Shown here piece after piece: positions 1-46,328 of a DNA stretch of 64,000 nucleotides. Source of the stretch: Aurantiochytrium sp. KH105 (Eukaryota; Sar; Bigyra; Thraustochytrida; Thraustochytriidae); NCBI GenBank assembly GCA_003116975.1, contig BGKB01000007.1, positions 248,001 to 312,000 of the forward strand. The letters are read 5' to 3'. The position numbers were made by a program, and so were the translations under genes. Numbering within the stretch: the stretch's first letter is position 1; each line of letters opens with the position of its first letter. Below the pieces are notes generated by a model. The model saw nothing but the letters and a program-made list of their open reading frames with translations, had not been told where the DNA came from and ran no database searches.

Positions 1-3000
1 TCCTCTTGCGACATCGCCGGCCATTCCCTGGCAGCGACGCAAATGTCTTGCGAGCGAGCAAATTGATCTGCGCGCTCCGAGAGGTCTGCTGCGTGCCGCT
101 TGCGCTCGCCCGAACACAGTTCGCGGCAAGCTTCTTCAAGAGAAGCTCTCGCGCAACGTTCGTCCTCGACGAGGCAGGCCGCAGCGCGATCACGTGCACG
201 CATAGCCTCGTATATACGAAGCTCGAAAGCGTTCAGATCCAGGAGCACGTTTCCATTGTTCAAGGCGCGACATCGTCCGAGCAACTTGCGCAAGAGCTCT
301 TGCATCCTTCGTGGCTCCAACAAGGAATCCTGCGCCTCTGAAGCAATCGCTTCGACGCCTTCGTGCTGGGGAATGAGATTTACAAATGCATGTATCGCGC
401 TTCCCCGCGTTACAGGCTGACCGCGCTTCAGCTCGAGACTCACTTGCGGAGTCCACTCTCCACGTACGCGGTCAAAACTGGCAACTGTTAAAAGATCGCC
501 TTGATCCGACAATGTCGCGCGTAGAATCGAGCCCAGCCGCTGACTTGATTGTCCAACGCAGCGGAGTAGACGTCCGTGGCGCAAAAATTCGCGATCGAAC
601 GAGACTGCGTCGTCTTTACCGTTCTCTGCACCTCGCAGAACAAAACGCGTGCGCGACGCTAGCCACGTCACGAGTCTCTGCATCTCCGATGCCGATTCTG
701 CTTCAGCATGCGCCAAGAATGGAACATCGGATCGCTTTGTGCAAGCTAATATATCGAGCATATCCGCCGGTAGTGTCACCGAGTGCTTGACAAGTATTTC
801 GGCATCAGGATCGCTCTCCGGTGTTGCTCCTCCCGTTACAGGTCCAAGTCCGACACGAGCGGAAGGATCCAGCAGCTCCCGCATGATAGTGTCTCCTGAT
901 GACGTTCTCGCAGCTGCCGCCGTATACCTCGCGAGAAGCTCCCTCTCCATTTTCCAATCATCTTTGGCCACATCAAATTGACCTTCTTGACTTGCATATC
1001 GTGCAGCCTCTTGAACTTCCGACTCGGTCTTTGCATGCGCATCGCTCTGTGCAAATACTTCAATGCCCGCATCAATGCTCGACGACGACTTAAGTGAAGA
1101 TCTTCTGATCAATGCAGCATCCTCGTTTTCTGCGGTCGTCTCGATCATGCCCTCGTCGGAATTTGTAAGACTCTCATCGGCAACGATCATCTTCGTATTT
1201 GAGGCCGGCAACGATGGCCCTTCAATCGGCAGAGCAAATTCGGCTCCTGTTTGTGTTTGTAGGAATACACGCTCTTCGATTGGATCGTAGCGGATGCGAA
1301 AAGGCCCTATTTTCCGTGAAACACCCCGCAAAAGAGTTTGAGACAGACTCGCCACGCTTCGTGACACTTCAGCCCGCGCCATAGTTTCGTGCGCGTCACC
1401 GCGGGCAAGCGTACGCAAATCTTCTGCCTCTTGCCAACATTCTTCACTCACAACGTCGAGATCGATTGTGTGGCTTGAAATATGGTTCCAAGACGGTACA
1501 CGAACTTGCACTAGAGCGTCTCCGGATGGTCCTTGCCAACACCTCAAAACACAGCCAATCCCATCGATGCGTCGCACTGCCTCGACTGTCGCTCTCTTCC
1601 ATGACTTGGGACTTGCCGAACGTAGCGCATAACGCTTCATGACAGTACTGCTTGGCCACAAAATCTTTCGAGCAGATGCGTCAAGACGCAAGCCATCAAG
1701 AGCTCCTGTGAGACGGCTTCTACGGGCGTGCCTTAGTCCAGCAATTCTGTTTGCCAAACGTGTCCTCTCTTCGTATATCTTGTCCATGTGCGGCGCCTGG
1801 ACCATGACATGTGCATTTTCTTCAAGATATAAAGTAGTCTGCTCTTGCGCAGTCTTGGCCAGATCGTCTTCAAGTGCCATGGCCGCCTGCTCGGTACAAC
1901 ACACGCGCGTATCCTTTTCACGTTGCGTCTCTCGTCGCATGCGAAGCCAAAGGTTTCGATTGCGCTCCAAAACGTCCATCGACACCGAGACGTTTCCGCG
2001 TACGCAAGTGACGCCACGATGAAGAAGACGAAAGTGCTCATCGGGCCGCGCCTGACTTAGTATGAGGCATTGATATGATCTTGGGCCAAGACGAAATCGG
2101 TCCGGGGGCTGCATTGAATGATCCGCATCGAGAACGACATGCATGGTGTCCACTACGGAAGCCTTGAGATCCTTGTCGTGCAAGATTGCGTGCGCTACGG
2201 CGCCCCGAGGAACGCCGACCTGAAGCATTTTGCAGAACTTGGCAAAAAAAGGATGCTCTCGAGTCGCGTGGGGCGGTCGCGTTGCCGTACGCACAGCGAG
2301 GAGCGCAAAGAGCGTCGCAAAGAGTTCCTTGGCCCGCTGGCGCTCCAGCAAATGGGCAAGTCCCGCCTTTTCGACAAGGTCTCGCACCCGCGGCTTCGAT
2401 AAACGAATGCTCAACACGGTTTGGTCGAATTTGGCTGCTTCAATGAGAATATCCCCATCAGTGCGCATACGTCCCGACACAACAAGGTGCAAGCCGCTAA
2501 TGAAGAGAACTTCGCGATGAACGAGCTCATACAGAGCACGCGTATTCGTCACGAGTTTTAACGGATCGCGATAGCTTGCCTCTCGAGCATCTCCGAGAGG
2601 CAAGAACGGAAAACGAGTCCGGAGAGGCTTTCCTGCCAACACAAAACGCTCCTTTCCCGTGTAAGCTGGGCCTTGGCGGCTTGGACTTTGCGCACGAGTC
2701 ATTCGCACGCGATCGTCGCACTCACCGTCCAACGACGCGTGACGTTGTTCGTTTCCGGACTCGCATAGACCTCGCCTCACAGCACCATCTAGTGTCAAAT
2801 TCCTCAGAATCTCTTCAATAACTTGGCGCGGATACGTGTTGCATTTGACACATTGTTTCCAAAGCACAAAAGACTCTAGATCCCCACTCTCCTGGAACAT
2901 GAGCCGAATAGACTCGTCATGAAGCGTAGTCCGGCACCGTTTGATGCGCCGTCCGTCTGCAAGTACGCGTGCGCGTGACCAGCACACTCGTACGGTCAAA

Positions 3001-6000
3001 TCGCCCTGATTTTCAAAGACAGTGACTGAGGCAGGAGCACCTGCAATCATGTGCGTGCCGCCAAGAATCATGTGGCCCTGAAGACTGCTGCGACCGCGGC
3101 AAAGATCTTTCCACCACTGCGTTGGGAAAAGCGAGTTGAAAAGCTTTCGCCGAAGACGCTGAAAGTAGAGCTTGCCAAGCCTTAAGCCTCCATCAATGAC
3201 ATTGAGATGAACAAGCTGAACGAGACGACCTACCACCTTTCGCCGCAGAGCATCAATGGCTTTCCGCATGCTTTGGTGTGTGAGCATTCCGTTTGCATCA
3301 CGCGAGGCGAGCAAAAGTCGTTGCACATGTGCGTATGAAAACACTTCCGGGATTGGCGCGCCAGGAAGACCGGCATGTGGCTCGACCAGTAAAAGACGTA
3401 AATCAATTGGGTCTAGCTCCCATTCCGTGGCTCGACCAGCGCTAGCATCGTATACGCTGACTCGAATCGTTCCCACGTATGGCGGTTGTACAATCGCGTC
3501 TTCTACGTCGAAACTGATGGACCACTGATGTGCGAGACTATTCTCCCACGCGCTTCGATCGCGTACAAGCATGCACATGGCCTCCTCTACCGTTGGCTTG
3601 TGTTGCGGGCCTCCAAAAATTGGCCCGGCAAGGGCGACATGCGGGTCGAAACCTTCGATCCCTTGACTGTGCGTGAACTTGGAGCGCACCCAGCTCGGGG
3701 GCAAGGCTGGCACGCGTGGGTGGCTTGGTGCATCGAGCTCAAAAACTTGAATGATGGCTCGAAATGACTCCTTGACGTGACCCACAAAGGGAGGGGACAC
3801 GATCATGCGGCCTTGGCGAAAGAGAGTATTATGGTTCGTTGTTGCACGAAGATGTCGCGGTTGCCTCTCCAACAAGCACCATTTTCGCACCAGCGGGCCT
3901 GCTCGCGACTGCCGTCCTTGTTTGATCGCGACAAGTTTTCTGATCGAGATTTGCACGATTGCTCGCAAGCTTGCGTGCAAGAGGTCTCGGACAGCTCGCG
4001 TGTCTTTTTGAATGAGCTCAATTGTTGGCACAATTTCGCATTGCGTCGACCGAAGGAGTGAGGCTGTTTGATCGGCATGATCCTTGCTCGTCGCGTACTC
4101 GATGCTGGCTTCAAACGCGCGGTGAATGGCAAGATTACGAATATGTATCGCGAGATCGACCGCTTTCGTGGCTTGCCATTTCCGCTGAATGTAAATCGCA
4201 TTATTGGCGTTTTCAAGCGGATCCCAGGCCTGCTGATTGGTACTGAGCGAAAGGTCCTCATAGAGCTCGATTTGCCGCTTGGAAAAGTTCAACGCCGTGT
4301 CGCAGGCTTGCACCATGGCGTGTTTGTGGACTTGTGCTGCAAGCATGGTGGCATGAGCATTGTGCAAGTGCTCAGAGGCCTGTACATGCGCCTTTTCGCG
4401 CCACATCAGGTTTTCTTGCGCCACGCGTGCTCTTTGTTTCACTCCGCGAAACAAGCCTTGCGTTCCCTTCCAAAGTCGTTGACAGTGCCGATCACGACGG
4501 TCGAATTCTTGCAAAAGATACATTAGCTGTACGAGTCGGAGACGTAGTTCGCGTTTCTTTCGACACGCGTAGGTGCTTGGCACCACAGTCCTCTCGCCCA
4601 CATTTGGCAGCAGCCGCGCTGCAGAGGCCCCATGTTGCAAAAGAATGTCGGCAGCCTTGCGCGCGGCCCTGTGTGCTTGTTGCGCAACGCCAGCGTCAAC
4701 GCGGCGAAGCCCTCGTAAAAGTGATGCAAAACGAAAAACCCCACAGGTGGTCTGGCTTGTGGCCGGAAAGTATGCCTCGAAAAGCAGGCGGCCGTGCGAG
4801 GCATGCGCGCGGCGGCAATAGCACGGCCCATTTCCAGCTCCAGCGTGAAAAATGCGCTCCAGCTTGACGATTCCACGATCACAGGATTCCACATTGCCTG
4901 GTACGCACGGTTCTCCGCGCACCGAAAGCCACGCAAGATCCCGGCGCTCACGTGTTCGAGTTGTAAGACCGCGACAAGCAAAACACGGCTCGAGAAGCGT
5001 GGCCTTGCTGCGTGTGAAGCGATCGAGCTTGTGGGCGTCGTGAATACTCACCAGGACAGTTTCTCCTTCATACTCGACGGCCTCTGTGAGGAACGGGCGC
5101 TTCATTCTTTGCTTGGCGCGATGTACAGACTTGCGCACAACCTTGCGTGTAAAGCGTCGGGCCAACTTGACAGCGTTACGGCCTCGCCGCAGCTCGAGTT
5201 CGGCGTTTGCTGCAATTCGAACACGAAGATCTGTGCAAAATGCGCGCGCAAAAGCGGCGCGCAAATTTCGCTGAATGATCCCCGCAGCCCGCGTGCGCTG
5301 CTGCCACTTTTGCAGAAAAAGCTCGGCGGTGTCGCAGTCCATGAGCAAAAGTGAACCTTGCGCTTCACGACCAAGCTGCACGAGCTGCATGATCGTTTCG
5401 GGGTTGCATGCGTCCCCGCGACGCAGACTCTTCGCAAGACGACGTTGTATTCGCTTCCGACGCGCCACCAGCGCTTTGCCCTGTTCCTTAAGCTTTCGAT
5501 TGAAGTCAAAGTGCTTTCGATGTTCGCCACGCACCTGCATGCCCTCAAAGGTGGTACCTGGATCCCCAGTTGCCCAGACGCCTGGTTTTTTACCCCAGAG
5601 ATCGTGGCGCACTTGCTGCACAGCAATGTACTCGCCCCGCTCCCAAAAGTATGCCGTGTGGAGCCTGCTCTCCGAGAGCCGCTCGGCTTGCGTTTGCGGA
5701 TTGTACCGCGGGGCCCGTCGACGACGCGCCGCGCCATTCGAAAGATCGGCAATCTCCTCCTTCGAAAGGACATCCGGGGTCTTGTAGGTCCTATAGACGA
5801 TGGGCTTTTTCTTGCGCGACGAGCCGTGTTTTTTCCCCACGGCGGCTGGCCCCTTACCCAGAAATTGTGTGTTGTCTTCTCCAGAAGAGCTTTCCTCTGA
5901 AGAATCGTTCTCGGAGGAGGACTCGACCTCTTCACCGTTTTCCCGTCGCCTCGCGCGCTCCTCCCTTCGCGCTTGTTTTTCTGCAGCCAAGAGCAGCTGT

Positions 6001-8888
6001 GTGGCTTTGGCCTTGGCATCAAGTCTCGACTCGTACATGTAGCGCGCGAGATCTTTTTCTTCGCTCAGAACAGCTTGCGCTGCTCGAATTCTACGCATGT
6101 CGACGACCTCAAAGTGTTTAGCCTCGTACTTGCGAGCAAATTCATCCACGAGATGGCGAGAGGTAACGTGAAGAGAAATATATGCTCGCTGTTTCCCGAC
6201 TGCAATCTGTGGGCCACGTGACATGTGGCCGTGCCATTCGATGCACTGATTCGGGTGTACCACTACTGCGTCTGTGGGAACGCCGAAAGTTGCGGCTGCT
6301 TGTTTTGTGGTTGTGTCCCCGGCCAAGGCGCTTTCGGATCGAACCTTGCGCACGCGCAGCTCACGCCTTTCGCCATTTTGGATGTCTGCCGCAAGTAGAA
6401 AGGGATTTCCGCGGAATGAGAGTTTGCCCGTCGCAAACTCTTCCTTGAAGAAAAGCCGCAAAAGCTCAATGTCCTCGAGGAAATTGGTATCGTGAAGCAT
6501 TTTAAGCAAATAATTTTGCCCGTTCCACATGTACGAGGGGGAATACTTGCCGAAATGGTTGAATGAGTTTGCAAAGCAAATCTCACATCGCGTATTTGGA
6601 ACACCCATCTCGCTCTCTACAGCAAAATGCTTGCCACAGGCGCGGATAATTGTCTTTGGTTTGGGAAAGTTCTCCGGACCGCACATTTCTTTGGCCATGA
6701 GTCGCTTGATCTCGTCTTCGTACGCGCGCAGCGCCTGCTCGCGCGTCTCGTAAATACCGACGTAACGAAATCGTAGAGCTTTTTTCCCGTTGACGTCCTC
6801 GTCCCGGCTGAAGCGCTTGACCTTGGATCTGAACGCTTTAGATCCTGGATACAGCTGTTCGCCCATGAACCCGATTTTTACGACCCAGCCTCTCGGCTTG
6901 AGAAAGGATTCTGCAAACGTCTCCGCGGCGCCTTCTGCTGCGCTCAAGCGCGTCTCGCCGCCGCGTCTCCACTTGACAAGAGCCTCGACGACGCGCACGG
7001 ACGCCACCCGAAGACGATTGAGAAGATACAAGAGAGATCCAACATCTTCCGTCTGTACAAATCCTGAAAGGTGGCTTTGGAACTTTCGACTGCACGCCTC
7101 AGCCTCGCTCCGAGCCGAGGCAATGAGCTGTTCCCGCGAGGCAATGGCGTCGAGAACACCCATTTCAAGACCGGCATCCACGGCGGCTCGCCGCATTTGC
7201 CATTCATGTGCTTCTTTGGGCGACACATAGAAATGCCTTCCTTGGCACTGAGCGCGCGTACATCGTTGCTTGAATCCCCACTCGTTGCAAAAAGGAGGCG
7301 CTGTTTCCAACGTCATGCCGCGGACAGTGCTGGCGTCGAGGTCAGCTTGACTAACTAGAACCTTTCGATTTTGATGTGAAACGTTCGCCGCGCTCATAGC
7401 TGCAGCGACAAAGTCTGTCGCATCAAGCCTCTCGTCATCATCATTATCATCTTTATTATCGGCAGCGGCCGAACGTTTGGAGGAGCCTTCTTTTTCGTCG
7501 ATATTCCCCATTTCGGACACGAGACTCTCAGAGGAGGCTGCTGTGGATATGGACATCTCGCTGCTCTGAGAAGGCGGTCTGCCCGCTGTCGACGCGGATT
7601 TACGCGCTTCGTGCTGCGCCTTCCTTGCCAAGCGGACGCGGTTTTTGATCTGAGCTAGCTCTTGCTCTTGCTGGCGTGACAATGCCGCCTCCGCGTCAGC
7701 CATTCGGTGCTGCCTACGCGTGGAGCTATCCATGAGCTCCAGATGAGACATTTTCAATCCCTCGCGAAGATGATAGTCCCAGTCCTGAGGATCTGGTGTT
7801 GAAGGCGGATCTGGATCATCAGCTTGACTTGCGCCGTGTTCAGTCAGATGGCCTACCTCGGTGTGTGGTGCACGTGAGTCAGCTCCGAGCGCAGGAAGCT
7901 TGGTTTTGGCCAAATTTGGCGAAGTTTGTGCATTTGTTGCCGCGCTTACAAAGGAGTCTGGCGCCAGTCCTCGCTCGATCATATGCCGCTTGAGCTGTTT
8001 CGCGTCCTCCTTGGCCGCGTCTGCTGTCTTGCGCAGGGCAGAAGCCTCAGCTTGCTTTGCCAACATCACACGACGCGTTTTCGCCCGTGCCTCGAAGGAA
8101 AGAACATTGTGTTGCTTGCGAAGCTTTTCAAGAAGTTCTTGGGCCTCCGCGGCTATTTTTTCGGCCTCGTCATGGGCCTCGTTGGCTTCACGGTCAGCGC
8201 GCTGCACACGCAGCAGGAAGTTTCGTTTCTTCTCGATTCTACCTTGTGCAACTAGCATTGTTGCGTCGAGCTCGCTATCTCGGTCACGACGAAGCTGCCG
8301 CGAGCGAGGCGTCAAGGCCTCCAATCCCTCTTGCAGTTCTGGTGAGCGCAGCGCCCACTCTTGATGGCTGTCGACCAGCAAATCGACTTCTGCGTCGGCA
8401 TTTTCCATTTGATTGTGCAGAGCGTCCTTGCCCGGAATGCCCGTGCCATGAAAGAGGACCCTGCCTTCATGGATTTCTTTGACGAACTGCACTCCCTCGG
8501 ATTCAATAGCGAGACGAGACAATTCGGCGTTGCGTTCCACACGCAAGGCCTTCTCCTCGTGATACTCTTCATCTCGACGTTCGCGTTCTAGTGCACGCTG
8601 TACGCTTTCGCGAGCGCCTTCGATAACGCGTGCATTAAGTTCCGCTGCGACATCGCCAGGCTCAACAGCTGGACCGTCGATGTTGTCTTCATAGGTCTCC
8701 AAAGCATGATCATTGTCATCAGAGTCTCGTTGCAGCTCGCCATCGTCGTGAGCATGAGGTGCTCGATCTGGTGGTGGTCGTGATGTCACCGAGAATCGCG
8801 CCTTGGCTTGCTGCTCTTTTCGATGCAGGCGTTTTCGAAGCGCTTCTCGACGCGCCGCGGGCCCAAGCAGCGCTTGCTCGTGCTGCAT
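1..8888 (-). CDS. Giant multidomain protein (CCCH finger, IQ-like helix, WASH/CCDC53-like motif), 3' end outside window
   Basis: One uninterrupted frame of at least 2,962 codons runs from the ATG at 8888 to the left edge; I read it codon by codon and found no stop or intron. The start is the first Met after an in-frame stop at 9030-9032. In order it shows: a charged, helical, probably coiled-coil N terminus (about 1-420); a Ser/Asp-rich linker; a CCCH finger with C534-x8-C543-x4-C548-x3-H552; a beta-rich stretch (about 662-718, with YVGIYETREQALRAYED) faintly like an AP2 domain; a Cys/His cluster (748-775); a Ser/Glu tract (about 983-1005); an IQ-like helix (GIIQRNLRAAFARAF, about 1196); and MLQVGVPRGAV (about 2217), resembling the short conserved motif of WASH-complex CCDC53. 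No single known family explains the whole protein. A cytoskeletal or ciliary scaffold is a guess. The frame is certain; the domain calls are moderate to weak. Confidence 0.85.
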   Translation of the reverse strand, partial: MQHEQALLGPAARREALRKRLHRKEQQAKARFSVTSRPPPDRAPHAHDDGELQRDSDDNDHALETYEDNIDGPAVEPGDVAAELNARVIEGARESVQRALERERRDEEYHEEKALRVERNAELSRLAIESEGVQFVKEIHEGRVLFHGTGIPGKDALHNQMENADAEVDLLVDSHQEWALRSPELQEGLEALTPRSRQLRRDRDSELDATMLVAQGRIEKKRNFLLRVQRADREANEAHDEAEKIAAEAQELLEKLRKQHNVLSFEARAKTRRVMLAKQAEASALRKTADAAKEDAKQLKRHMIERGLAPDSFVSAATNAQTSPNLAKTKLPALGADSRAPHTEVGHLTEHGASQADDPDPPSTPDPQDWDYHLREGLKMSHLELMDSSTRRQHRMADAEAALSRQQEQELAQIKNRVRLARKAQHEARKSASTAGRPPSQSSEMSISTAASSESLVSEMGNIDEKEGSSKRSAAADNKDDNDDDERLDATDFVAAAMSAANVSHQNRKVLVSQADLDASTVRGMTLETAPPFCNEWGFKQRCTRAQCQGRHFYVSPKEAHEWQMRRAAVDAGLEMGVLDAIASREQLIASARSEAEACSRKFQSHLSGFVQTEDVGSLLYLLNRLRVASVRVVEALVKWRRGGETRLSAAEGAAETFAESFLKPRGWVVKIGFMGEQLYPGSKAFRSKVKRFSRDEDVNGKKALRFRYVGIYETREQALRAYEDEIKRLMAKEMCGPENFPKPKTIIRACGKHFAVESEMGVPNTRCEICFANSFNHFGKYSPSYMWNGQNYLLKMLHDTNFLEDIELLRLFFKEEFATGKLSFRGNPFLLAADIQNGERRELRVRKVRSESALAGDTTTKQAAATFGVPTDAVVVHPNQCIEWHGHMSRGPQIAVGKQRAYISLHVTSRHLVDEFARKYEAKHFEVVDMRRIRAAQAVLSEEKDLARYMYESRLDAKAKATQLLLAAEKQARREERARRRENGEEVESSSENDSSEESSSGEDNTQFLGKGPAAVGKKHGSSRKKKPIVYRTYKTPDVLSKEEIADLSNGAARRRRAPRYNPQTQAERLSESRLHTAYFWERGEYIAVQQVRHDLWGKKPGVWATGDPGTTFEGMQVRGEHRKHFDFNRKLKEQGKALVARRKRIQRRLAKSLRRGDACNPETIMQLVQLGREAQGSLLLMDCDTAELFLQKWQQRTRAAGIIQRNLRAAFARAFCTDLRVRIAANAELELRRGRNAVKLARRFTRKVVRKSVHRAKQRMKRPFLTEAVEYEGETVLVSIHDAHKLDRFTRSKATLLEPCFACRGLTTRTRERRDLAWLSVRGEPCVPGNVESCDRGIVKLERIFHAGAGNGPCYCRRAHASHGRLLFEAYFPATSQTTCGVFRFASLLRGLRRVDAGVAQQAHRAARKAADILLQHGASAARLLPNVGERTVVPSTYACRKKRELRLRLVQLMYLLQEFDRRDRHCQRLWKGTQGLFRGVKQRARVAQENLMWREKAHVQASEHLHNAHATMLAAQVHKHAMVQACDTALNFSKRQIELYEDLSLSTNQQAWDPLENANNAIYIQRKWQATKAVDLAIHIRNLAIHRAFEASIEYATSKDHADQTASLLRSTQCEIVPTIELIQKDTRAVRDLLHASLRAIVQISIRKLVAIKQGRQSRAGPLVRKWCLLERQPRHLRATTNHNTLFRQGRMIVSPPFVGHVKESFRAIIQVFELDAPSHPRVPALPPSWVRSKFTHSQGIEGFDPHVALAGPIFGGPQHKPTVEEAMCMLVRDRSAWENSLAHQWSISFDVEDAIVQPPYVGTIRVSVYDASAGRATEWELDPIDLRLLLVEPHAGLPGAPIPEVFSYAHVQRLLLASRDANGMLTHQSMRKAIDALRRKVVGRLVQLVHLNVIDGGLRLGKLYFQRLRRKLFNSLFPTQWWKDLCRGRSSLQGHMILGGTHMIAGAPASVTVFENQGDLTVRVCWSRARVLADGRRIKRCRTTLHDESIRLMFQESGDLESFVLWKQCVKCNTYPRQVIEEILRNLTLDGAVRRGLCESGNEQRHASLDGECDDRVRMTRAQSPSRQGPAYTGKERFVLAGKPLRTRFPFLPLGDAREASYRDPLKLVTNTRALYELVHREVLFISGLHLVVSGRMRTDGDILIEAAKFDQTVLSIRLSKPRVRDLVEKAGLAHLLERQRAKELFATLFALLAVRTATRPPHATREHPFFAKFCKMLQVGVPRGAVAHAILHDKDLKASVVDTMHVVLDADHSMQPPDRFRLGPRSYQCLILSQARPDEHFRLLHRGVTCVRGNVSVSMDVLERNRNLWLRMRRETQREKDTRVCCTEQAAMALEDDLAKTAQEQTTLYLEENAHVMVQAPHMDKIYEERTRLANRIAGLRHARRSRLTGALDGLRLDASARKILWPSSTVMKRYALRSASPKSWKRATVEAVRRIDGIGCVLRCWQGPSGDALVQVRVPSWNHISSHTIDLDVVSEECWQEAEDLRTLARGDAHETMARAEVSRSVASLSQTLLRGVSRKIGPFRIRYDPIEERVFLQTQTGAEFALPIEGPSLPASNTKMIVADESLTNSDEGMIETTAENEDAALIRRSSLKSSSSIDAGIEVFAQSDAHAKTESEVQEAARYASQEGQFDVAKDDWKMERELLARYTAAAARTSSGDTIMRELLDPSARVGLGPVTGGATPESDPDAEILVKHSVTLPADMLDILACTKRSDVPFLAHAEAESASEMQRLVTWLASRTRFVLRGAENGKDDAVSFDREFLRHGRLLRCVGQSSQRLGSILRATLSDQGDLLTVASFDRVRGEWTPQVSLELKRGQPVTRGSAIHAFVNLIPQHEGVEAIASEAQDSLLEPRRMQELLRKLLGRCRALNNGNVLLDLNAFELRIYEAMRARDRAAACLVEDERCARASLEEACRELCSGERKRHAADLSERADQFARSQDICVAAREWPAMSQE

Positions 8889-9056: not shown

Positions 9057-9089
<33 letters not shown>

Positions 9090-9443: not shown

Positions 9444-10175
9444 ATGGCGGAGACAACCGACTACGCTGGCGCGGAGGCGGAGGGCGGAGATGGCGCCGGC
9501 AAGCTGCCGCCTTCCGCGATGGTGAAGCCGCTGAGTCTGCCGGACAACCTGCTGGAGCTGACGAGGCAAAAGGAGGTGACGATTCTTGCTCGCGTCATGC
9601 TTGTTGCGACGCACAGCGGCGCCCAAGACGAGCTTGTTCGCGAAATAGAGACTCTGTGCGAGGGTCGTGGAACTGTGACGGGTGTCGGTCTCGTGATGCG
9701 CCAGGCATGCATGCTCTTTTGCGAAGGCCGCTCGGAGGCCATGCGGGACCTTGTGCTGGCCTTCAAGTCCAATTTGACCGCCAAGCTCGACGACTTGCGC
9801 GTCGCAGCTTTTTGCGATGACGTCCCGAGCCGAAGCTATTCCAGCTTTGGGGTGATGGCTGTAAACGTCCCCAAAGAAGCGAATCTTGAAGTTCCCGAGG
9901 AGAACATGACCAAGTTTATATTTGAGTCCTATCAACGCTGTACACTGCTCGGCAAGGAAGTAGGCTCTCGCGAGGTTTCTTCGGCGTTGGGTGCAATTCA
10001 GGAAAAGCAACCAGCGCTTTTGGTTTCGAGCGAGCGCATCGCTGCAATTGCCACTCATAACGATGCTATGACGATGGATGACTTTTTCGACTTGCATGGA
10101 AGGCCTGCGCAGCCCGAGTCACTCGGAGACACCATATGGCCGATGCAAGACATTGCGGTGGATCTTTTGCGGTAA
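9444..10175 (+). CDS. BLUF/TEX47-like domain protein
   Basis: This gene encodes 243 residues from an ATG at 9444 (MAETTDYAG). After an acidic, Gly/Ala-rich leader of about 30 residues, residues 45-140 follow the strand-helix pattern of the BLUF fold. ILARVMLVATHSG is the first strand. GTVTGVGLVMRQACMLFCEG corresponds to the 'TG-L-y-g-F-x-EG' segment of BLUF domains. EAMRDLVLAF is the helix, and DLRVAAFCDDVPSRSYSSFG matches the 'v-v-L-x-x-x-x-R-x-F-x-x-W' end. The Trp and the flavin-binding Asn/Gln pattern are not evident, so light sensing is unlikely. The vertebrate testis/flagellum protein TEX47 is the closest family I recall. The C-terminal 100 residues are unassigned. The gene is intronless and converges on the PRMT gene with a 132-bp gap. 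Gene: sure; fold: moderate. Confidence 0.8.
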   Translation: MAETTDYAGAEAEGGDGAGKLPPSAMVKPLSLPDNLLELTRQKEVTILARVMLVATHSGAQDELVREIETLCEGRGTVTGVGLVMRQACMLFCEGRSEAMRDLVLAFKSNLTAKLDDLRVAAFCDDVPSRSYSSFGVMAVNVPKEANLEVPEENMTKFIFESYQRCTLLGKEVGSREVSSALGAIQEKQPALLVSSERIAAIATHNDAMTMDDFFDLHGRPAQPESLGDTIWPMQDIAVDLLR

Positions 10176-25120: not shown

Positions 25121-25160
25121 TCGAGGGGTCCTTCTTGTCCTGGCGTGGCGTGTTTTGTCT

Positions 25161-25329
25161 CTTGTCTTGTCTTGTCTTGTCTTGTCTTGTCTTGTCTTGT
25201 CTTGTCTTGTCTTGTCTTGTCTTGTCTTGTCTTGTCTTGTCTTGTCTTGTCTTGTCTTGTCTTGTCTTGTCTTGTCTTGTCTTGTCTTGTCTTGTCTTGT
25301 CTTGTCTTGTCTTGTCTTGTCTTGTCTTG
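25161..25329. repeat. (CTTGT)n array, about 34 copies
   Basis: 169 bp of perfect CTTGT. Because the unit has five bases and no stop word in the minus frames, long Thr-Arg-Gln-Asp-Lys frames appear across it. These are translations of the repeat, not genes. Confidence 0.97.
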
Positions 25330-25674: not shown

Positions 25675-26871
25675 CGGAGGAGACACCGAGGAGAAGTGAA
25701 GAGCCGTGTCGACGCGGGGCGAGAGAATGAATGAGCGAAGGCAGCGAGAGTGGAAAGGAACAATCTCACTGTCAGTCAGTCAGGCTGGGATTTTCACGGC
25801 GAAACGGCAGCCGAAAGAGGCCATGTGCTGTGGAACACACACGTTGCGCAAGACCAATGCAATTTTCTCCGCCAGATCATTGAAGATAATAAAACTGTTC
25901 TTTGCGCTGCCGACAGTCCTTTCGCAAACTTCTTCTGACCTTGAGCAAGTTATAATGTTGTCTATCCGGTCCGAGAGATCGAGATTCCAGCCCAAACAAT
26001 GGGCTCTCGTACAGAATTTACCTCATGTCTCTCGAATAACGGTTAATTTATAGCAATTCCGCGTTGTAACGGACACATGAATGGCCGAGGTGGGGTATGC
26101 CGCGTCGCTGCGAATGCGTCTTCCGTTTGTAGTCAGACTGGTCAAGCGTGATTGCTTTCGAGTCGCCCTGTGCCCTCTGTATGACATCGTCCCGGCGGTC
26201 TGTGTTGGTAGCGAGGCCTTGGCACGGCATGGGCAATGAGGGAAAAAATTGAGCGAAACGCACGGCAAATGCAGGAACGGCCCGAGCCACCCACCCATAC
26301 CATACCGCGCAAACTAACAAGCCGTCGATTGGCAAATGATTGACAATGAGTGATAGATTGACAGTTTCTTTCGCGATCCGTCTGCACTGACTCAGACAGC
26401 GAGACTAGACACTCGCAACGGCGCGGCCACACTGTGCAAGTCTCTCCTTTCAGACCGGGTGGTAGGTAGGCAGGAAGACAAGCAGGCAGGCAGGCTACTA
26501 CCAGCCAGTATGCCCAGCCTGGCCCAGGCGGCCCGCTATTACGCTAGTCAATCAGTGGCAGCCATTTTGTCAGTCAGTCACCGTGAAGCAAAGTGCGGTT
26601 GCCCGCAAGCGAATGGAACTTGCCTGCCGCAGACTTGACTGACCAATTGTGTAACGATACTAAAAGGGAAGAAGGCGACCCTGGGCCACGCACGAGCCGA
26701 GGCCGACCGGCGGACGGCCTTGGCCTGGGCCCCTCCTCATAAGTGGCGTCTCCGCCAGGGCGACGTCAAACCCTTTTTGGTGGCCTCGCCACGCGAGTCG
26801 AGCGATATTTCATCCCGGGGCGAGAGCACGTACTGCCTGGTGCCCCTGGGGGCTCTGCCACGTGCAGACAA

Positions 26872-29800
26872 ATGCCGGAAGCTTCGGGGTCTCTCCGAGA
26901 GTCCTCGCTCACGGAGGAAGAAGTTCTTGCGGGAAACGATAGCGGCACCGATGATGAACATGATGACGGCACCATCCCTGGCAATGAGTCGAACAGAGCT
27001 CCTCGCGTACAATTCGACGCAAGAACCAGAGGTTCTTTGACTGAGGCAGCTGCAGGTGCATCGCGTAAACCCCCCGATGCTGTCGCGCCAAGTATTTTGG
27101 ATAATGACAATGATAGCCACAACCCCAAGGTGAAGGCCAAAAAAGTTGTGCAGGGCCGATGGATTCGCAAAGTCAAAGGAGTGAGGGTCGCCCCGGCTCC
27201 CCATGGCGCCAAGGTCCCGGTTGTACAAGGCCACAAAAGCACTCCTGCAACTGGGCTCTCCATATATCAGATTCAGCGCATGAAGAGGCACTTTGGCGAG
27301 GAGGGAACGCTTCACACAGAAGCGAGAAAACACATTATCGAACGATGGACGCACACGCATCTCGTGCTCAAACTCGCCATTATTGCAGTCCTGGCCGTTG
27401 TACTGCTCTTCCTTGGGGCTTACGCGGAGCCTCTCGTTTCGGGACGCCTCGTCTGGGTATCGGGTGCCTTGCTGCTATTCTCGACGCTGATCGGTATCCG
27501 TGGTGCCATGGTCGTTGTTCGTGATATACAGCGCGACGACGACGGTCTCGAGACTCCGGGGCAGCGCATGCTGCAAGTCTACTTTCATATTGCGCTCGCT
27601 TTTGTCGTACTCTTTCTACCGTTTGCCATTGGACTCTTGCGAGATCCCATTGGCTACGAGGGAGACGTGTTGGCCACGCTGTTCGAGGCTGGGGATGCCT
27701 TACTATGGGAAGAGGCTAAACGTCTTCTCTTTGCGGCCGGCTTCATTGGCCTCATCGTAGCGCTCGTCATTCTCACCTCTTTGCAATCGGTCGTGAAGAT
27801 TGTGACCTTTTACGAAATTACCCAAAGCTTTTTGGAGACCTTTTCTCTCACCCTCATCGCTTTTGGAATTCTTCTCATTTATCTGCTGCTCTCTCTCTTC
27901 AAAGAGGCGCAATTTCTCAGCAGCAATGAGGCCGAAACGCTCGTGGGAATTATGGACTCAAGAATTATCCTCGCGACGATCTGCACGGTCTTTGTCGTTG
28001 GCATGAGTATTATTGGTTTTTTCGCAGCTTGGTTCGAAAGTCGTAGGCTCTTGCTGTTCCATGCAGTAGGCATGGCCTTTCTCGGTGTGATGATCTTCAC
28101 CTTTGGCATCCTCATTCTCTCGCTCGACTGGCCAGCGTATATCGAGGGACGCTGCTATCAAGTCGTCAAGACCATGTCCGCAGATTGGTGGACGAGTGCT
28201 CTTCAGTGCACAAAATACGGCGGAACGTCTATTGGCGCTCTTGTCGAAGCTTTCGACGACACCACGAGCACGTGGGTCTATCTCATCAACGGCGTGGGAA
28301 GTGCGGCGCGCTGCGCAGACTCGAGCCAATATGCACAGGCCTGGGAGTATGCCCCCATTACAATGGCGAACCGTACCGTCGATCTCGTCGGCTGTGTGAA
28401 CTTGGCGTGCTGCAGCACGTTGAGCAGCATCCTCTCGTCCATGACATTCACGATTGCCTTTGCTTTTACCCTTTTGCTGGTGGGAATCTTTGTGGTTGTC
28501 TTCGGAGACCTTTGGCTTCGCAGGGAAACCAACAAGGACACCAACAACATCAAGTACTTTTCGCGTACACGAGCCTTCTGGATCCTCACAATGTCTACCT
28601 TTCTCACGCTTCTTGCTATTATTATCCTCACGGTCCTTCTCAAGGGTGATCTTGGCCGTGCTACCGAGGATCTGGTTCTCGCCGAAGACATTCAGCAGTT
28701 CGTGAACAAAACCTCTCTACTCGTGCCGACAGGAGATGAAATTTCTCCGCATAGCTGCAGCAATCAAGTTCGCGATGGCGCCGAGACCGATATTGATTGT
28801 GGCGGTATCGAAGGTCAGGGTGGATGCTCGAGTGAACAGCGATGCCGCGCCCGGCAGAAATGCCTCGAGGATTCCGATTGTCTCACCGATCTCATTTGCG
28901 ACAGCACTTACCAGGTCTGCGTCTTGCCTCCTTCCAATGTCACCTGCAGCAATGGCAAGAGAGATGTCCTCGAAACGGATGTCGACTGCGGAGGCCCAAG
29001 TTGCCCGGGATGTGGGAACGGCCAGACGTGTTCATCCAATGCAGATTGTTATTTCCTTCACTGCGAGTCCGGAGTCTGTATCAGTTGCTCAGATGGCATC
29101 AAGAACGGCGACGAAGCCGACGTGGACTGTGGCGCACAGCACTGTGTTCAAGAAGCCTCACTTGATGCCTGGGCAGAGGATGCGGGTCAGCCGACATCGT
29201 CAGAAACTTTCGACAACTCCCAGTACAGAGGTCCAAATGGACTTTGCCTGTCCGGCGCGCGATGTTCGAAGGGCGCGCAGTGCGAGGGCGGTTTGTGCAT
29301 TGAGGGAAGCTGCGCATCGTGCTCTAACGGCCTTCTTGACGGAGACGAGACCGACGTTGATTGTGGTGGCTCCTACTGCCAAGCTAGGTGCAGTGCGGGA
29401 GCAATTTGCTCGGCAGATAGCGATTGCGTCAGTGGCACGCTCTGTGATGCCGCGACGAGCACCTGCGTTTGGGAAGCCAATTTGACCTGCGCACAAGACG
29501 GAGTGCAAAATAACGACGAGACTGATGTTGACTGCGGTGGCGAGCACAATAGCTGCGAGCGTTGCGGTGAAAGTATGCAGTGTTCACAAAATAATGACTG
29601 CGCAAGTGGCATCTGTCACGTGGTCAACGGCACCGGGTACTGCGCCAGCTGCTCGAATGGCATTCAAGATGGTGACGAGGCCGGTGTGGACTGCGGTGGA
29701 TCCATGTGCGCTTCTCGGTGCAGTGTTGACGACCCCTGCACGAGCACTTCAGACTGCGCAACAGGTCTCTTTTGCTGGAATGAAGTCAATGTAGACGCCG

Positions 29801-32800
29801 CCGTTCAACACTACATGCAAACGCACGAAGTAGACTCCGAGGCAACGGCTCGCGCAGAGCTTGCCACAGTTTTTCCTTCCACGGGTAGCTGCCAGGTACC
29901 TTTTACTCTGACGATCAAAGCTCTCTCGCCCGTGTTTTACATGAACACGCAAGTGAATTACGGTGACCTTTTTGAGTCAGAGGCACTCAGTGGACTGCAG
30001 CTTGATGGAAGTAGTGATACGGATGCCGATATTTCCTCTTCTTCTACCGGTGGTACTCGTCGTAGGCTCATGAGAGAACGAGAGCCCCGAAGACGCCTCC
30101 GCGAGCTTGCCTCCGCAGTGGATGACGGGTATGTAAATAGCCTCACCACTGAAGAGGAGAATACATGGCCATACCTTTGCAATCTCACGGTTCAAAGCGC
30201 TCTCGCGTCAACAGGAACGCATTTTCAGATCGAAGATGATGGAGGAGCCACCGTCACAACCTGGAATACATCTTCGCAGAGTGGTGTTGATATCCTCATT
30301 CAGCATGGGGATGCTTTTCCGCTCATCTACATTGTCCCTACAACCTGCACGGATTTGCGGGAAAGTGAAATTATCACGACGTGGTCTGTTGATTCAAGTT
30401 GCGATTCAGTCAACGTTGAAAAAGAACTTGAAATTGGCGTCGCAAGCTTGCTCGTACCGCTCACGACCTCTCTCGCAGGGTATGTGCGGTCTAGTAAGTG
30501 CACAGAGGACCCCTCGCACGTGGACTGCATCTTGATCACAGGCGTGACCGTCACGCTTCGCTCATATAGAGCGGGGCTTTGCGCCAATGTAATGCCCGCT
30601 CCCTTGGCTTCTTGCGGATCGTGCGTCAGCTTTCACTATCACCAATGCGTATCGGACCATGAGCAGGCCTGTTGCTACTGGGAGGATAGCGAAGAGGACA
30701 ATGCTGCAGCAATCTCAGCCTGCCTGAACGATGCTGAAGAGTTTGTTCAGACCGAGACGTACACCAATCAAATCCCGGGCCTGTACTTTCTGTCTTGGCC
30801 TGAGCTCTACACGGACTTAACCATTGCATCCTCGCACACGGTTCTTATCCAATTTTCCAAGGAAGGCTACCAGGACGCCGAAGCAATTGTGACGATTCCT
30901 GTAGGAGGCATGCAATTCATCAGCGACGTTTACATGAATGAATCAGGCACCGATGAGTATAAGACAACCCCTAGTCCCACGGTTGCGCCAACCCCTCCAG
31001 GACTTGCATATGAAACAGCAAGCCCCACGGATGCCCCTGTTCCAACACAAACGGTGATACCGACCACCTCGCCGACCCGTTCGGTGACGAGATCACCAAC
31101 CTCATTGCCAAGCTTCTTAGCAACGTCATCACCAACCTCGACGCCGACAGCATCGCCGACCCGATCGCTCTCCGATACGCCGACATTGTCGCCAAGCGCG
31201 ACGCCAACAGTGTCGCCGAATGCACTCGTGACGTCTTCGCCAACCATATCGCCAACATCAGTGCCGACCTCATCGCCGACTGCCATGCCAACGTCGCCAA
31301 CACTATCACCAACCTCATTGCCTACTGAAACGCCTACAAAATCACCGACTGCCGAACCAACATCACCAACGCCAGCGCCAACGCCCAAGGTCAGCATCAC
31401 TCCCACAACCGACCCAGTGGTAACCATTTCTGGATTGTGTCCTCTGACAGACGTAGCCATGGGAGTGCGTCGATTGCAAAACCTCTTTGACAGCGTTTCC
31501 GAGTATGATTACGTTCTCTCGGCCTACCTCGAAGTCGTGACACTGTATACCATGGAAATCGATGCCGTAGTCGATGCTTCGAGCACAACGGAGGAAACAG
31601 CGTGTCAGTTACGATGCGGAACGTCATGCTCAACCACGTGTTCCGCAGAGGCCACAAGTGTCAGCGCAACACAAAGTGCAGTGGGCATCAAGACTTTTGA
31701 GACGATTCGATACGGAGACGACAATGTATTGGCATCTGCCATAGGGACATTTGAGTCTTTTCAGACGGACTTTCTCGATGCAATTGGTGTCGATCCCAGC
31801 GCTCTCTCGCAGGTCACAAAGCAGACAGTCGTGTATGCATCTGGCTCTCCGAACACAGAGAATCAGTACACGACCGAGGTCACGGTGCGAAAGGTATTAG
31901 ACTGGGCACTCAGCGACGGCGCAGCTGAAAATGCGCATGATGCCATCTTCAACGGCACAGATTGCAACACGACAACTCTTCTTGAGGTGTGCGGTGGAAC
32001 AATCTGCAACGAGCGCGGCGTGTGCAACCCGACCACTGGCCTCTGCGAGTGTGACGAAGGCTACCATGGATACCAATGCCAGGATACAACATGGGAGTTT
32101 TCTCGCGACTGCTCATGGGAAAAGGTTTACGATCAATCAAAGTGTATTGCGAGCCAGGACATCGGACGCGAGTCCTTTAACGAAAAGTTTGCAGTCAGTG
32201 GACGCCTACGCTACGACCGATATGGAGAGCCTTATGCGTTCTATGAGAGACTTTCGGATCCATCAGGTTTTGATGCATACAGCACTTTCTTGGAGAAGTT
32301 CGATGCAGACGGTAACCTGCTGCATACTGACTTTACTATACATTCGACAGAGGCGGCTCTTGAGGCAGGGGATGCAACGTGGGAATTCTGCGACTACGGC
32401 ACGAATGGCGTCGGATTTCCAGGTTTCTGTGGGCCTACGTCGTACCGCTCGACATACTGGTGCTCGAGACTTTGCACGGAAAATGATCCGGCGGTCAGCT
32501 TCGTTTCAATGACGACAGACTTTCGACTCTATATTTGTGCCAAGGCCGACAATATCATTGATCCACCATCTCCAAGTAGCACCGGAACCTTGTCAGGTTC
32601 GGTGATGAATGAAGGCGGACTCGCAGTGGCCGCTACCATCAAACTCTTCAAAGGCACTGTCGATTCCGCAAGTGCGCAAGTCGCAACAGCATTTCGCGAA
32701 ATCACGACAACATCTTTTGATACAGGCGTAAGTGCAGAAGATGGGGACGGCACAGTTAACATTGCGGCAACGAGTAGTCTCGAAGTCTCGTCGCTGTGCT

Positions 32801-35763
32801 ATCCAAGCGAGAGCGAAAGCGTTGGAACCTCGAGTCTTGTGACGAGCGATTTCGCTTTCGAGGATCTGCCGCAGGGTATGTACAGCTTGCTCGTGATTCC
32901 GGAGGACAGTCTTGTGTACTCTGAAAAGCTTTTGACAAGTATCTCTTATTCGTCAGAGGATGTTCAAGTGGTGGTCCCATCAGCAAACGTAGGATCGCAA
33001 TTGCACCTTACATTCGAGTATGATCGCGGTGACTACGGTGAGCTTGAACTCGTCGTCAATTTCCAGCTCAGTGATGATGAGGACGCCGATGAATGTTCCA
33101 TTGGGATTTCCGCGCTGGAAGACGGAGCTTGTGCCTGCGGCGACGTACAAGTGGCCTCGATTGCGTCGAACGCGCTAGAGAGTAACGAGGGCCGATTCTC
33201 GCAGTCCATCGTGATCAACACGCTTTACCTCACCGTGTATCGATTTTTTCTGCGCCAGCGCTCTACCTCCTCAACCACGAGCTCGTCAGACCTCACGTAT
33301 CGTACAGACGGCCGATGCGGTGCTAACTTTCCTCTCGATAACGGACGAGCCTCTCAATGCCCCACAGAAGAGATTCTTTGGGATGATGGTACCACTGGCT
33401 TGCGCCCTTGCTGCTCGCAAGGCGGATACTGCGGCTCATCCGAACGTCACTGCTCGTGCCAACTCTGCATGGACTACAGAGTTTTCATGGAGGATGACTG
33501 GGAATCAAAGTACCGAATTGATGGCGCCTGCCGAGATCCTTTACAACCCTTTGACAGCGATGGCACGGTGGCCATTTGTCCTCCTGATGCCGTAACATGG
33601 TGGGACCTGGTAACTGAGGCACGCCCCTGCTGCAACGCTGACTTTCAATGTGGTAATAGTGTTGCCGATTGCACGTGCTCCACGTGCGTGGACTACCGCG
33701 CCTTTCCGAGTTCAAGCTCAAATGCAACAACGAACACGACAGAATCCAGCGCCAGCCTAGTTGACTTGTTGCAAGATTCGAATGCGGTGGTCAAGATCGT
33801 CACAGTTGAAGGAGCAGAGACGACGATTTCATTGCCCGCGGCTGTTGAAATTAATTTCGAGGTCGGAGAGAATGGGGACTACGATGACGCAAGCTTTGTT
33901 CGTCTCTTTTGCATTGATGCGCAGAGCGAGAGCCCTTCGATACATGAGTACGGTGCCCCCCGTTACTTTGCTTTTGAAAGCGAGATGATGGCGCTGGACA
34001 TCGGCCAGTGCCCGGGCAACTCAACGTGTGAGTTTATTGCCGTTTCTGGGATTCAGGCAAACGACGAGCTCAATGGAATTTTCCGTCGTCGTTACGATGT
34101 GAATGCAGAAACGTACAAGGCATTCCCAGGTTATGACGTGAGTGAGGCGTGCTCCACATTTGCGAGCACCATCACGGATAGCGGCACGAGCCCTGACGAC
34201 TGCTATTCGACGTGCGACGCTAGTGATGCTTGCGATGGCTTCGTGTATCGCCCCATCGATGAATCTGACTCCTCGAAAGGCTTTTCGTGTCGCTACGTGA
34301 ATAACATTACACGCTGTGGCGGCAAGTTTTCGAGCATTGACATCGCCAAAGTTACTTACATGAAAACGTACGGGGAGCGCCTAGTGCCGACCAAATGGTA
34401 CACGCACGTTGACACACTCTTTTCGAGCGATGGCCAAATCCACTTGTACAGAGACGAGCCGTCAGCTCTCCTTGGCGGCATGTACACATGGTTTTTCGAC
34501 TCGAACCTCAACCCAGACGATGGCTACTTGGCTTTCGGTGTGGATGCCATTGGCTCGGGAACACCGGATGGAGTGGTGCAGTGGTTGGTGTACTCAACGG
34601 CTTGGACATATCCAATCTTCTTGGCGGAAAGCCCACTGACGACGCTCATTACCACCATGACAGATTCGTGCGACCTTTCTTATCCGTCCCTCGTCAAGAA
34701 CTTTTCGTCGCTGGCGTGCAGCTGCTCTGGCACTGGTCTAGCAAGCGCATATATTTGCTCTGACGAGATGGCTTGTGGCACGGGCCAGAATGATGACGAC
34801 TGCCGCGCGGATCCGGATGCGCTACTTGATGAGGGAAGGTACCCATACGAGCTTCAGACACATTATCAGTGCGGTCTCGGTGTGGACCGAAGCGAGATGG
34901 CATATATCAATTTTGCTGCGGAGAACTGCGACAAGAATACCGCGCCTAAAAATGGCGCATGTCGCATTCACAACGGCCCCGTCTCTCAGTGCAAGCGAAT
35001 TTGCGACAAGCATCCCGGCAAGTGCGCAGGCTTTGATTACGAGCGCACCGACGAGTTTGTCGGTGGCTACAATGCGTACATTGCTGAAGAGGTGGACACA
35101 GGGCGTTGCCACTTTCGGACATCGTCAGGCATGTATTTTGCCGGCTTTAACACCATGCATGACTGCTACATTCGCCAGGCTCGCCCTGACGATGGCGCCG
35201 TCTGCAAGCCAACAAAGTTTCCCTCCGATGAACCTGGCACGGACTTTGGGTGTCCTCCTGGATTCACGTATTGCGGAGAAGGGCGCTACGAACCAACGCA
35301 GTACACTTCGTGCGCCACCGAGGATGCCACGGAGTCTTGCTCGACATTTCAGATTCGTTTTGCGGGAACAAATTACTGTCTCACACGCACGCGATGGTCG
35401 ATTCGCGCCTTGCAATGCGACCCAGAGGACTCGCATCAAGCATGGACGCTCACAGCGGAGGGCTATCTCGTGGGCCAAGGCGTGCGTTCGCAGACCGAAG
35501 TGTTCTCAAACTACTATTACACGATGGGCGTAAATCTCTCGAATTCGACATCGACAGCCTTTGTCATGGATCCCACGTCGCAAAACTTTGCAGAAAACTT
35601 TGAACCGATCAAATTTCGAGCAAATGAGGCAAATGAGCTTCATGGGGCTCTTGACAGCGATGGCACGCGGCTTTGTTTCAATGCGGACCCAGTTCTTGGA
35701 CTTGAAGCGGGCGTTCACATTTATGTGCTGACTAGCATCTGTGCGGCATTCGAGATGTTTTAG
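26872..35763 (+). CDS. Nine-TM receptor-like surface protein with giant modular ectodomain
   Basis: The protein has 2,963 residues from ATG 26872, the first ATG after the stop at 26740. A cytosolic tail of about 160 residues is followed by nine hydrophobic segments (near 164, 191, 234, 287, 323, 365, 392, 523 and 569), with a Cys-containing loop before the eighth. An odd number puts the large C-terminal part outside. The ectodomain starts with six Cys-rich repeats of the form C-S-N-G-x-x-D-G-D-E-T-D-V-D-C-G-G (about 629-957). Then come a Pro/Thr/Ser stalk of SPT repeats (about 1364-1517), one EGF-like module (CNERGVCNPTTGLCECDEGY), two hevein-like chitin-binding modules (about 2145-2277, e.g. 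PCCSQGGYCG), two PAN/apple-like modules (about 2413-2500 and 2667-2767) and a possibly ricin-like end. Glycan or cell-wall sensing or adhesion is inferred from the modules. I know no named family with this layout. Confidence 0.88.
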   Translation: MPEASGSLRESSLTEEEVLAGNDSGTDDEHDDGTIPGNESNRAPRVQFDARTRGSLTEAAAGASRKPPDAVAPSILDNDNDSHNPKVKAKKVVQGRWIRKVKGVRVAPAPHGAKVPVVQGHKSTPATGLSIYQIQRMKRHFGEEGTLHTEARKHIIERWTHTHLVLKLAIIAVLAVVLLFLGAYAEPLVSGRLVWVSGALLLFSTLIGIRGAMVVVRDIQRDDDGLETPGQRMLQVYFHIALAFVVLFLPFAIGLLRDPIGYEGDVLATLFEAGDALLWEEAKRLLFAAGFIGLIVALVILTSLQSVVKIVTFYEITQSFLETFSLTLIAFGILLIYLLLSLFKEAQFLSSNEAETLVGIMDSRIILATICTVFVVGMSIIGFFAAWFESRRLLLFHAVGMAFLGVMIFTFGILILSLDWPAYIEGRCYQVVKTMSADWWTSALQCTKYGGTSIGALVEAFDDTTSTWVYLINGVGSAARCADSSQYAQAWEYAPITMANRTVDLVGCVNLACCSTLSSILSSMTFTIAFAFTLLLVGIFVVVFGDLWLRRETNKDTNNIKYFSRTRAFWILTMSTFLTLLAIIILTVLLKGDLGRATEDLVLAEDIQQFVNKTSLLVPTGDEISPHSCSNQVRDGAETDIDCGGIEGQGGCSSEQRCRARQKCLEDSDCLTDLICDSTYQVCVLPPSNVTCSNGKRDVLETDVDCGGPSCPGCGNGQTCSSNADCYFLHCESGVCISCSDGIKNGDEADVDCGAQHCVQEASLDAWAEDAGQPTSSETFDNSQYRGPNGLCLSGARCSKGAQCEGGLCIEGSCASCSNGLLDGDETDVDCGGSYCQARCSAGAICSADSDCVSGTLCDAATSTCVWEANLTCAQDGVQNNDETDVDCGGEHNSCERCGESMQCSQNNDCASGICHVVNGTGYCASCSNGIQDGDEAGVDCGGSMCASRCSVDDPCTSTSDCATGLFCWNEVNVDAAVQHYMQTHEVDSEATARAELATVFPSTGSCQVPFTLTIKALSPVFYMNTQVNYGDLFESEALSGLQLDGSSDTDADISSSSTGGTRRRLMREREPRRRLRELASAVDDGYVNSLTTEEENTWPYLCNLTVQSALASTGTHFQIEDDGGATVTTWNTSSQSGVDILIQHGDAFPLIYIVPTTCTDLRESEIITTWSVDSSCDSVNVEKELEIGVASLLVPLTTSLAGYVRSSKCTEDPSHVDCILITGVTVTLRSYRAGLCANVMPAPLASCGSCVSFHYHQCVSDHEQACCYWEDSEEDNAAAISACLNDAEEFVQTETYTNQIPGLYFLSWPELYTDLTIASSHTVLIQFSKEGYQDAEAIVTIPVGGMQFISDVYMNESGTDEYKTTPSPTVAPTPPGLAYETASPTDAPVPTQTVIPTTSPTRSVTRSPTSLPSFLATSSPTSTPTASPTRSLSDTPTLSPSATPTVSPNALVTSSPTISPTSVPTSSPTAMPTSPTLSPTSLPTETPTKSPTAEPTSPTPAPTPKVSITPTTDPVVTISGLCPLTDVAMGVRRLQNLFDSVSEYDYVLSAYLEVVTLYTMEIDAVVDASSTTEETACQLRCGTSCSTTCSAEATSVSATQSAVGIKTFETIRYGDDNVLASAIGTFESFQTDFLDAIGVDPSALSQVTKQTVVYASGSPNTENQYTTEVTVRKVLDWALSDGAAENAHDAIFNGTDCNTTTLLEVCGGTICNERGVCNPTTGLCECDEGYHGYQCQDTTWEFSRDCSWEKVYDQSKCIASQDIGRESFNEKFAVSGRLRYDRYGEPYAFYERLSDPSGFDAYSTFLEKFDADGNLLHTDFTIHSTEAALEAGDATWEFCDYGTNGVGFPGFCGPTSYRSTYWCSRLCTENDPAVSFVSMTTDFRLYICAKADNIIDPPSPSSTGTLSGSVMNEGGLAVAATIKLFKGTVDSASAQVATAFREITTTSFDTGVSAEDGDGTVNIAATSSLEVSSLCYPSESESVGTSSLVTSDFAFEDLPQGMYSLLVIPEDSLVYSEKLLTSISYSSEDVQVVVPSANVGSQLHLTFEYDRGDYGELELVVNFQLSDDEDADECSIGISALEDGACACGDVQVASIASNALESNEGRFSQSIVINTLYLTVYRFFLRQRSTSSTTSSSDLTYRTDGRCGANFPLDNGRASQCPTEEILWDDGTTGLRPCCSQGGYCGSSERHCSCQLCMDYRVFMEDDWESKYRIDGACRDPLQPFDSDGTVAICPPDAVTWWDLVTEARPCCNADFQCGNSVADCTCSTCVDYRAFPSSSSNATTNTTESSASLVDLLQDSNAVVKIVTVEGAETTISLPAAVEINFEVGENGDYDDASFVRLFCIDAQSESPSIHEYGAPRYFAFESEMMALDIGQCPGNSTCEFIAVSGIQANDELNGIFRRRYDVNAETYKAFPGYDVSEACSTFASTITDSGTSPDDCYSTCDASDACDGFVYRPIDESDSSKGFSCRYVNNITRCGGKFSSIDIAKVTYMKTYGERLVPTKWYTHVDTLFSSDGQIHLYRDEPSALLGGMYTWFFDSNLNPDDGYLAFGVDAIGSGTPDGVVQWLVYSTAWTYPIFLAESPLTTLITTMTDSCDLSYPSLVKNFSSLACSCSGTGLASAYICSDEMACGTGQNDDDCRADPDALLDEGRYPYELQTHYQCGLGVDRSEMAYINFAAENCDKNTAPKNGACRIHNGPVSQCKRICDKHPGKCAGFDYERTDEFVGGYNAYIAEEVDTGRCHFRTSSGMYFAGFNTMHDCYIRQARPDDGAVCKPTKFPSDEPGTDFGCPPGFTYCGEGRYEPTQYTSCATEDATESCSTFQIRFAGTNYCLTRTRWSIRALQCDPEDSHQAWTLTAEGYLVGQGVRSQTEVFSNYYYTMGVNLSNSTSTAFVMDPTSQNFAENFEPIKFRANEANELHGALDSDGTRLCFNADPVLGLEAGVHIYVLTSICAAFEMF

Positions 35764-45825: not shown

Positions 45826-46296
45826 TCATAAGAGACGACGGCTCAGGTCCCGGTCGAGGAGCTCCAAGGTAGAGGACGAACAGTTGGCGCCTTCCGAAGA
45901 CACGAGGTCGAGCCCTGCGCGCCAAAGCGAAGATGGCAAGAGGAAAGCGGAACAATCGGCGCCATTGTGCACGAGCGACGCGCGGACGAGGTTCGTTCTC
46001 GTATCTACGTCGACTCGAATGTTCACGCCAGCACTTGGTAGCGAAAGAATTGTCGAGAGAGACGGGGATTGCGATAATGGATGGTCGTGAAAGTCTTCTT
46101 CGGCTCTCGCTCGCGGTGTGATGGACTCGGGAATGACTTGCTGCGCATTGACTGCATCGCCCTTCTTCTTTGCCTTTCCGCAATTTTGACGGCAGTCTTG
46201 AGTCTCGGCTTCATGGCAACCGAGAAGTGCAGTATCGCTTTGTAACGCGCGAGTGCTGTGTTGATTTCGCTGATCTTGCTTCTCGTGCTGCTGATC

Positions 46297-46328
<32 letters not shown>

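Follow-up and report, generated by a model that had tools for sequence, protein, structure and literature searches.

The minus strand of a 64,000-nt stretch of Aurantiochytrium sp. KH105 DNA, analysed here as a whole and referred to as the window, carries a real-looking gene for a very long, uncharacterised protein. The open reading frame (ORF; 3..8888, minus strand) comprises at least 2962 codons from an ATG at position 8888, from which all residue numbers below are counted, and the C-terminus of the protein (at least 2962 residues) lies beyond the window. We take this long ORF to be one coding sequence, in which in-frame introns are possible.

Extent and coding character of the long ORF

A scan of the reading frames agreed with the preliminary description of the locus that the minus strand is free of stops from 9029 down to base 3, the last complete codon, a span of 3009 codons. 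A TGA immediately precedes this open frame, and the first ATG within it is that at 8888. The length then given, nearly 3,000 codons, is borne out by the 2962 or more codons from the ATG as a lower bound, the window ending within the ORF. In 100 first-order Markov resamplings of the first 9.1 kb, read in six frames, the longest frame averaged 223 codons and never exceeded 442. The claim of a single, long, uninterrupted ORF stands.

Base composition followed a coding pattern, with codon position 1 richer in GC than position 2 in all ten full 300-codon blocks. By a codon score that had six nearby frames as its training set and was run without a positive control, the frame of the long ORF was preferred in 21 of the 29 windows, each of 100 codons; in the other eight, two of which were ties to three decimals, it was not the best frame. 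The training frames were taken from stop to stop and thus include sequence ahead of the ATG (230 codons in the PurL-type frame), and the score left out residues 2901–2962.

For this locus, the length of the ORF is unremarkable, because the window holds another open frame of 3006 codons (26743–35763, plus strand); further open frames reach 1585, 1527 and 1483 codons. By eye, Cys-rich units of the NG..DGDETDVDCGG type recur in the 3006-codon ORF, which by eye also has hydrophobic stretches; it gave a weak tetraspanin match (E 2.2e-4, under the cut-off). Among 17 neighbouring frames searched against Pfam, 11 had a match at E 0.01 and six had none. Several neighbours encode near-complete domains in single frames—ThiF with E2_bind, PRMT_C, GATase_5, FA_desaturase and EHN (epoxide hydrolase N terminus)—and long unspliced frames therefore fit the locus. 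The presence of TEX47, WW and HAT repeat families among the Pfam matches points to a eukaryote. Base counts gave a GC content of 56% for the window; that of one thraustochytrid genome is given as 45.01% (PMC12258536). This comparison speaks neither for nor against a labyrinthulomycete origin. In the PurL-type gene, the stop-free frame extends upstream of the first ATG, and this upstream part contains 34 perfect copies of TCTTG (25160–25329).

A CCDC53-like peptide

The best-supported of the parts named for this protein, with moderate support from profile comparison, is a CCDC53-like peptide (2187..2267, minus strand; residues 2208–2234). CCDC53 is described as one of the smallest subunits of the WASH complex and as occurring in free trimers (PMC8047104). 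The motif MLQVGVPRGAV, earlier likened to a segment of this protein, indeed falls inside a match to the Pfam profile PF10152. Against the whole protein this match scored E 0.0066 and 17.4 bits, below the cut-off of 24.6, and an 86-residue stretch beginning within the motif gave E 0.0095. A 161-residue stretch reached E 1e-4 and 23.2 bits, still below the cut-off. A stretch of 41 residues, picked once the match was known and its score therefore flattered, came just over the curated cut-off (E 2.4e-5, 25.3 bits). The PDB search with this 41-residue stretch returned a single match, at E 1.4.

Coverage of the profile amounted to 27–29 of its 147 positions, about 106–135, with 106–134 matched by the whole protein; a full-length CCDC53 domain was not found, positions 1–105 having no match in the protein. 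The likeness to CCDC53 (WASHC3) is thus one of 27–29 residues, MLQVGVPRGAV included, near the end of the profile, whereas the proteins differ widely in size, a small WASH subunit versus a host of at least 2962 residues. Taken at face value, the profile match could mark the protein as a component of the WASH–Arp2/3 pathway that acts through this peptide, for example on endosomes. We consider this quite improbable, given how little of the profile is covered, that the Pfam listings for the protein contain no actin-pathway domain other than CCDC53, and that the motif occurs outside WASH subunits as well.

CCCH-type spacing

The canonical CCCH finger of the preliminary description held up as a spacing and not as a profile. 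The pattern C-x8-C-x4-C-x3-H occurs once, at residues 534–552 (7233..7289, minus strand), and is unlikely to have arisen by chance, because only one of 2000 shuffles carried it when the second gap was allowed to be x4 or x5; a wider pattern appeared in 0.5%. While the protein shares this spacing with CCCH zinc-finger proteins, it differs from them in having no CCCH profile match: Pfam listed no zf-CCCH at E 10, whether searched with the entire protein or with a stretch of 46 residues, a threshold at which the filters of the tool nonetheless drop most matches above about E 0.1. As one pattern, the spacing is suggestive.

Were this CCCH-type finger to bind RNA, the long ORF might encode a giant nuclear or RNA-associated protein. 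An acidic/serine stretch delimited by sequence (5871..5921, minus strand; residues 990–1006) and followed by Lys/Arg would then represent a nuclear segment and, together with the improbable spacing, argues for such a protein. We nevertheless regard it as unlikely, since short stretches yielded neither a CCCH nor an AP2 profile at E 10, within the limits set by the same filters.

Other proposed parts

An IQ-like helix had been placed at residues 1205–1215 (5244..5276, minus strand). The full IQ pattern, [FILV]Qxxx[RK]Gxxx[RK]xx[FILVWY], has no copy in the protein, the loose pattern present at residue 1205 arises in 52% of shuffles, and Pfam found no IQ match in residues 1195–1230; the helix is at chance level and was not confirmed. 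Likewise, the likeness of residues 667–730 (6699..6890, minus strand) to an AP2-type beta stretch was one seen by eye, and Pfam listed no AP2 match at E 10 for residues 655–740.

Residues 80–300 (7989..8651, minus strand) form a charged stretch that may be helical. The fraction of charged residues and Gln in four 60-residue windows over residues 61–300 was 0.45, 0.32, 0.48 and 0.47. In a crude test for the proposed coiled coil, run without a positive control, hydrophobic heptad periodicity in these windows was not above that of shuffles. The reported Cys/His cluster resolved into scattered cysteines and histidines in two stretches, with one CxxC pair in each: the first (6555..6683, minus strand) contains C736, C751, H754, C768, C771 and H778, and the second (4794..4985, minus strand) spans residues 1302–1365. 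Apart from the CCDC53-like peptide and the CCCH spacing, the proposed combination of parts mostly fails, with IQ at chance level and AP2 lacking a profile. The scaffold suggested to join RNA, calmodulin and the actin/WASH machinery is not upheld as a whole, its calmodulin part being at chance level, the CCCH spacing having no profile and the peptide being short rather than a CCDC53 domain.

Relatives, internal repeats and chance matches

A phmmer search of the PDB with the whole protein returned seven matches (E 0.34 to 2.2), none of them axonemal, and NCBIfam listed no match. One stretch in a collection of viral contigs and 18 in a collection of prokaryotic genome contigs fitted the search pattern, and none was confirmed as a relative. 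Among the matches listed for literature on CCDC53, CCCH, IQ, axonemes and stramenopiles, no title concerned such a protein; the print record may hold one.

A lineage-restricted protein with some other function, in which all the named motifs are incidental, is doubtful as an account of these data, and nearly as likely as the flagellar or cytoskeletal scaffold considered below. Most of the motifs are at chance level or have no profile support, and a mammalian receptor profile, G6B, matched one segment at E 0.0019, better than CCDC53 in the whole protein (E 0.0066); matches at such a level therefore mean little. However, the CCDC53 match improves to E 1e-4 and 2.4e-5 in short stretches. That two collection scans found no relative would also fit incidental motifs, but this absence says little because both collections were viral or prokaryotic and the long ORF is eukaryotic.

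By eye, units of a beta-beta-beta-alpha type look alike around residues 1365, 1805, 1950 and 2144, and one more lies in the ORF at 45829–47316. This latter ORF (minus strand, 496 residues) has no Pfam match; its segment LEIEVYDQETS resembles the long ORF around residue 1805 by eye, and shuffles gave no clear support. An AlphaFold model of residues 1680–2300, made without relatives and of unusable quality (mean pLDDT 32.4), has three places at which a helix comes after strands; that of residues 520–800, including the AP2-like stretch, was unusable as well (mean pLDDT 38.0). BLASTP comparison of the protein with itself revealed nothing under E 0.1, and phmmer with 150-residue windows no internal repeat among the best 40 matches listed. 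For four hand-picked 32-residue cores, the true leave-one-out score was reached by 18, 5, 20 and 20 of 20 shuffles. The same cores were equalled or beaten at 1, 0, 18 and 554 of 2928 other positions in the real protein; two of the four thus stand out against those positions, though they were picked by eye. With little sequence support from self-comparison, phmmer or shuffles, internal repeats were not retained.

Several matches were judged to be due to chance. Besides the G6B match, these were RAMP2 (E 0.012 at best) with seven other chains; RAMP, TELO2-interacting protein and ribonuclease J among the PDB matches; nicotinate dehydrogenase, ribosomal eS4 and CxnD; and phrog_8168 (E 0.0041). From Pfam came DUF3537, SR-25, Nop25, DUF5523, SVIP, RAMP, IMUP, Cupin_1 and Spt46 in segments, Vwaint in the whole protein (E 0.18), and GIY-YIG, zf-FCS_1, LIME1, T2SSF, Gp10_D3, Histone_HNS_N and DUF4848 in short stretches.

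A divergent neighbour of the TEX47/MOT7 family

The gene at 9444..10175 (plus strand; 243 aa) is, judging from its match to PF24787 (E 1.2e-8, 35.3 bits, cut-off 25), a TEX47/MOT7 homologue and as such a member of a flagellar dynein-tether family. Its best match in the PDB, at E 2.3e-4, was 8glv chain D9, which bears the name inner-arm dynein f/I1 light chain, and TEX47 of 9fqr matched at E 0.29. TEX47 is described as orthologous to MOT7 of Chlamydomonas and as a sperm-specific subunit of the T/TH complex that contacts the dynein f-beta linker; its partners CFAP43 and CFAP44 are axonemal tether proteins (PMC11779644).

The ATG of this gene and that of the long ORF lie 555 bases apart in divergent orientation, and the region between them could hold a promoter common to both. 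A GCT trinucleotide run of 10.7 copies (9057–9088) is located between the two genes. As a pointer to the long ORF acting in flagella, the neighbour is circumstantial: among the 11 Pfam-matched frames of the 17 scanned, the TEX47-type gene was the only one to give a flagellar hint. Resemblance to CFAP43/CFAP44 consists solely in a MOT7-family gene adjoining the long ORF, which differs from them in having no beta-propeller profile in Pfam and no axonemal chain among its seven PDB matches.

A tentative reading of the locus

Our leading guess, which we hold weakly, is that the long ORF encodes a flagellar or cytoskeletal scaffold. The locus would comprise one eukaryotic protein-coding gene, stop-free over at least 8.9 kb and giving a giant protein from a single, presumably unspliced transcript. 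The protein may be a lineage-restricted scaffold at the cytoskeleton or the flagellum, in which the CCDC53-like peptide would act as a short segment for docking. The gene shares the 555-base divergent upstream region with the TEX47/MOT7-family gene. For this scaffold speak the direct observations, namely the stop-free frame, the coding pattern of its base composition, the peptide match exceeding its cut-off in the 41-residue stretch and the TEX47-family neighbour; the near-complete domains that several neighbours carry in single frames also fit a long unspliced frame. Against it, divergent neighbours need not have a common function, the seven PDB matches include no axonemal protein, eight of the 29 codon windows did not prefer the frame, and an in-frame intron is possible. 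The alternative raised in the preliminary description, that of a ciliary protein, is slightly strengthened by the divergent neighbour, whose bearing on it is circumstantial.

A more elaborate version of the scaffold seems very unlikely to us. In it, a giant and hitherto undescribed scaffold of the flagellum or basal body would be co-regulated with MOT7/TEX47 through a shared divergent promoter and would recruit the actin/WASH machinery by its CCDC53-type peptide, thereby connecting actin or endosomes with the axoneme on its dynein-tether side.

The analysis sorts the motifs of this protein into supported (the CCDC53-like peptide and the CCCH spacing) and unsupported ones (IQ, AP2 and, by a crude test, coiled coil), and the TEX47/MOT7 neighbour provides an added lead. 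Should the long ORF indeed encode a conserved flagellar scaffold, a previously unrecognised giant component would be added to the protist flagellum.
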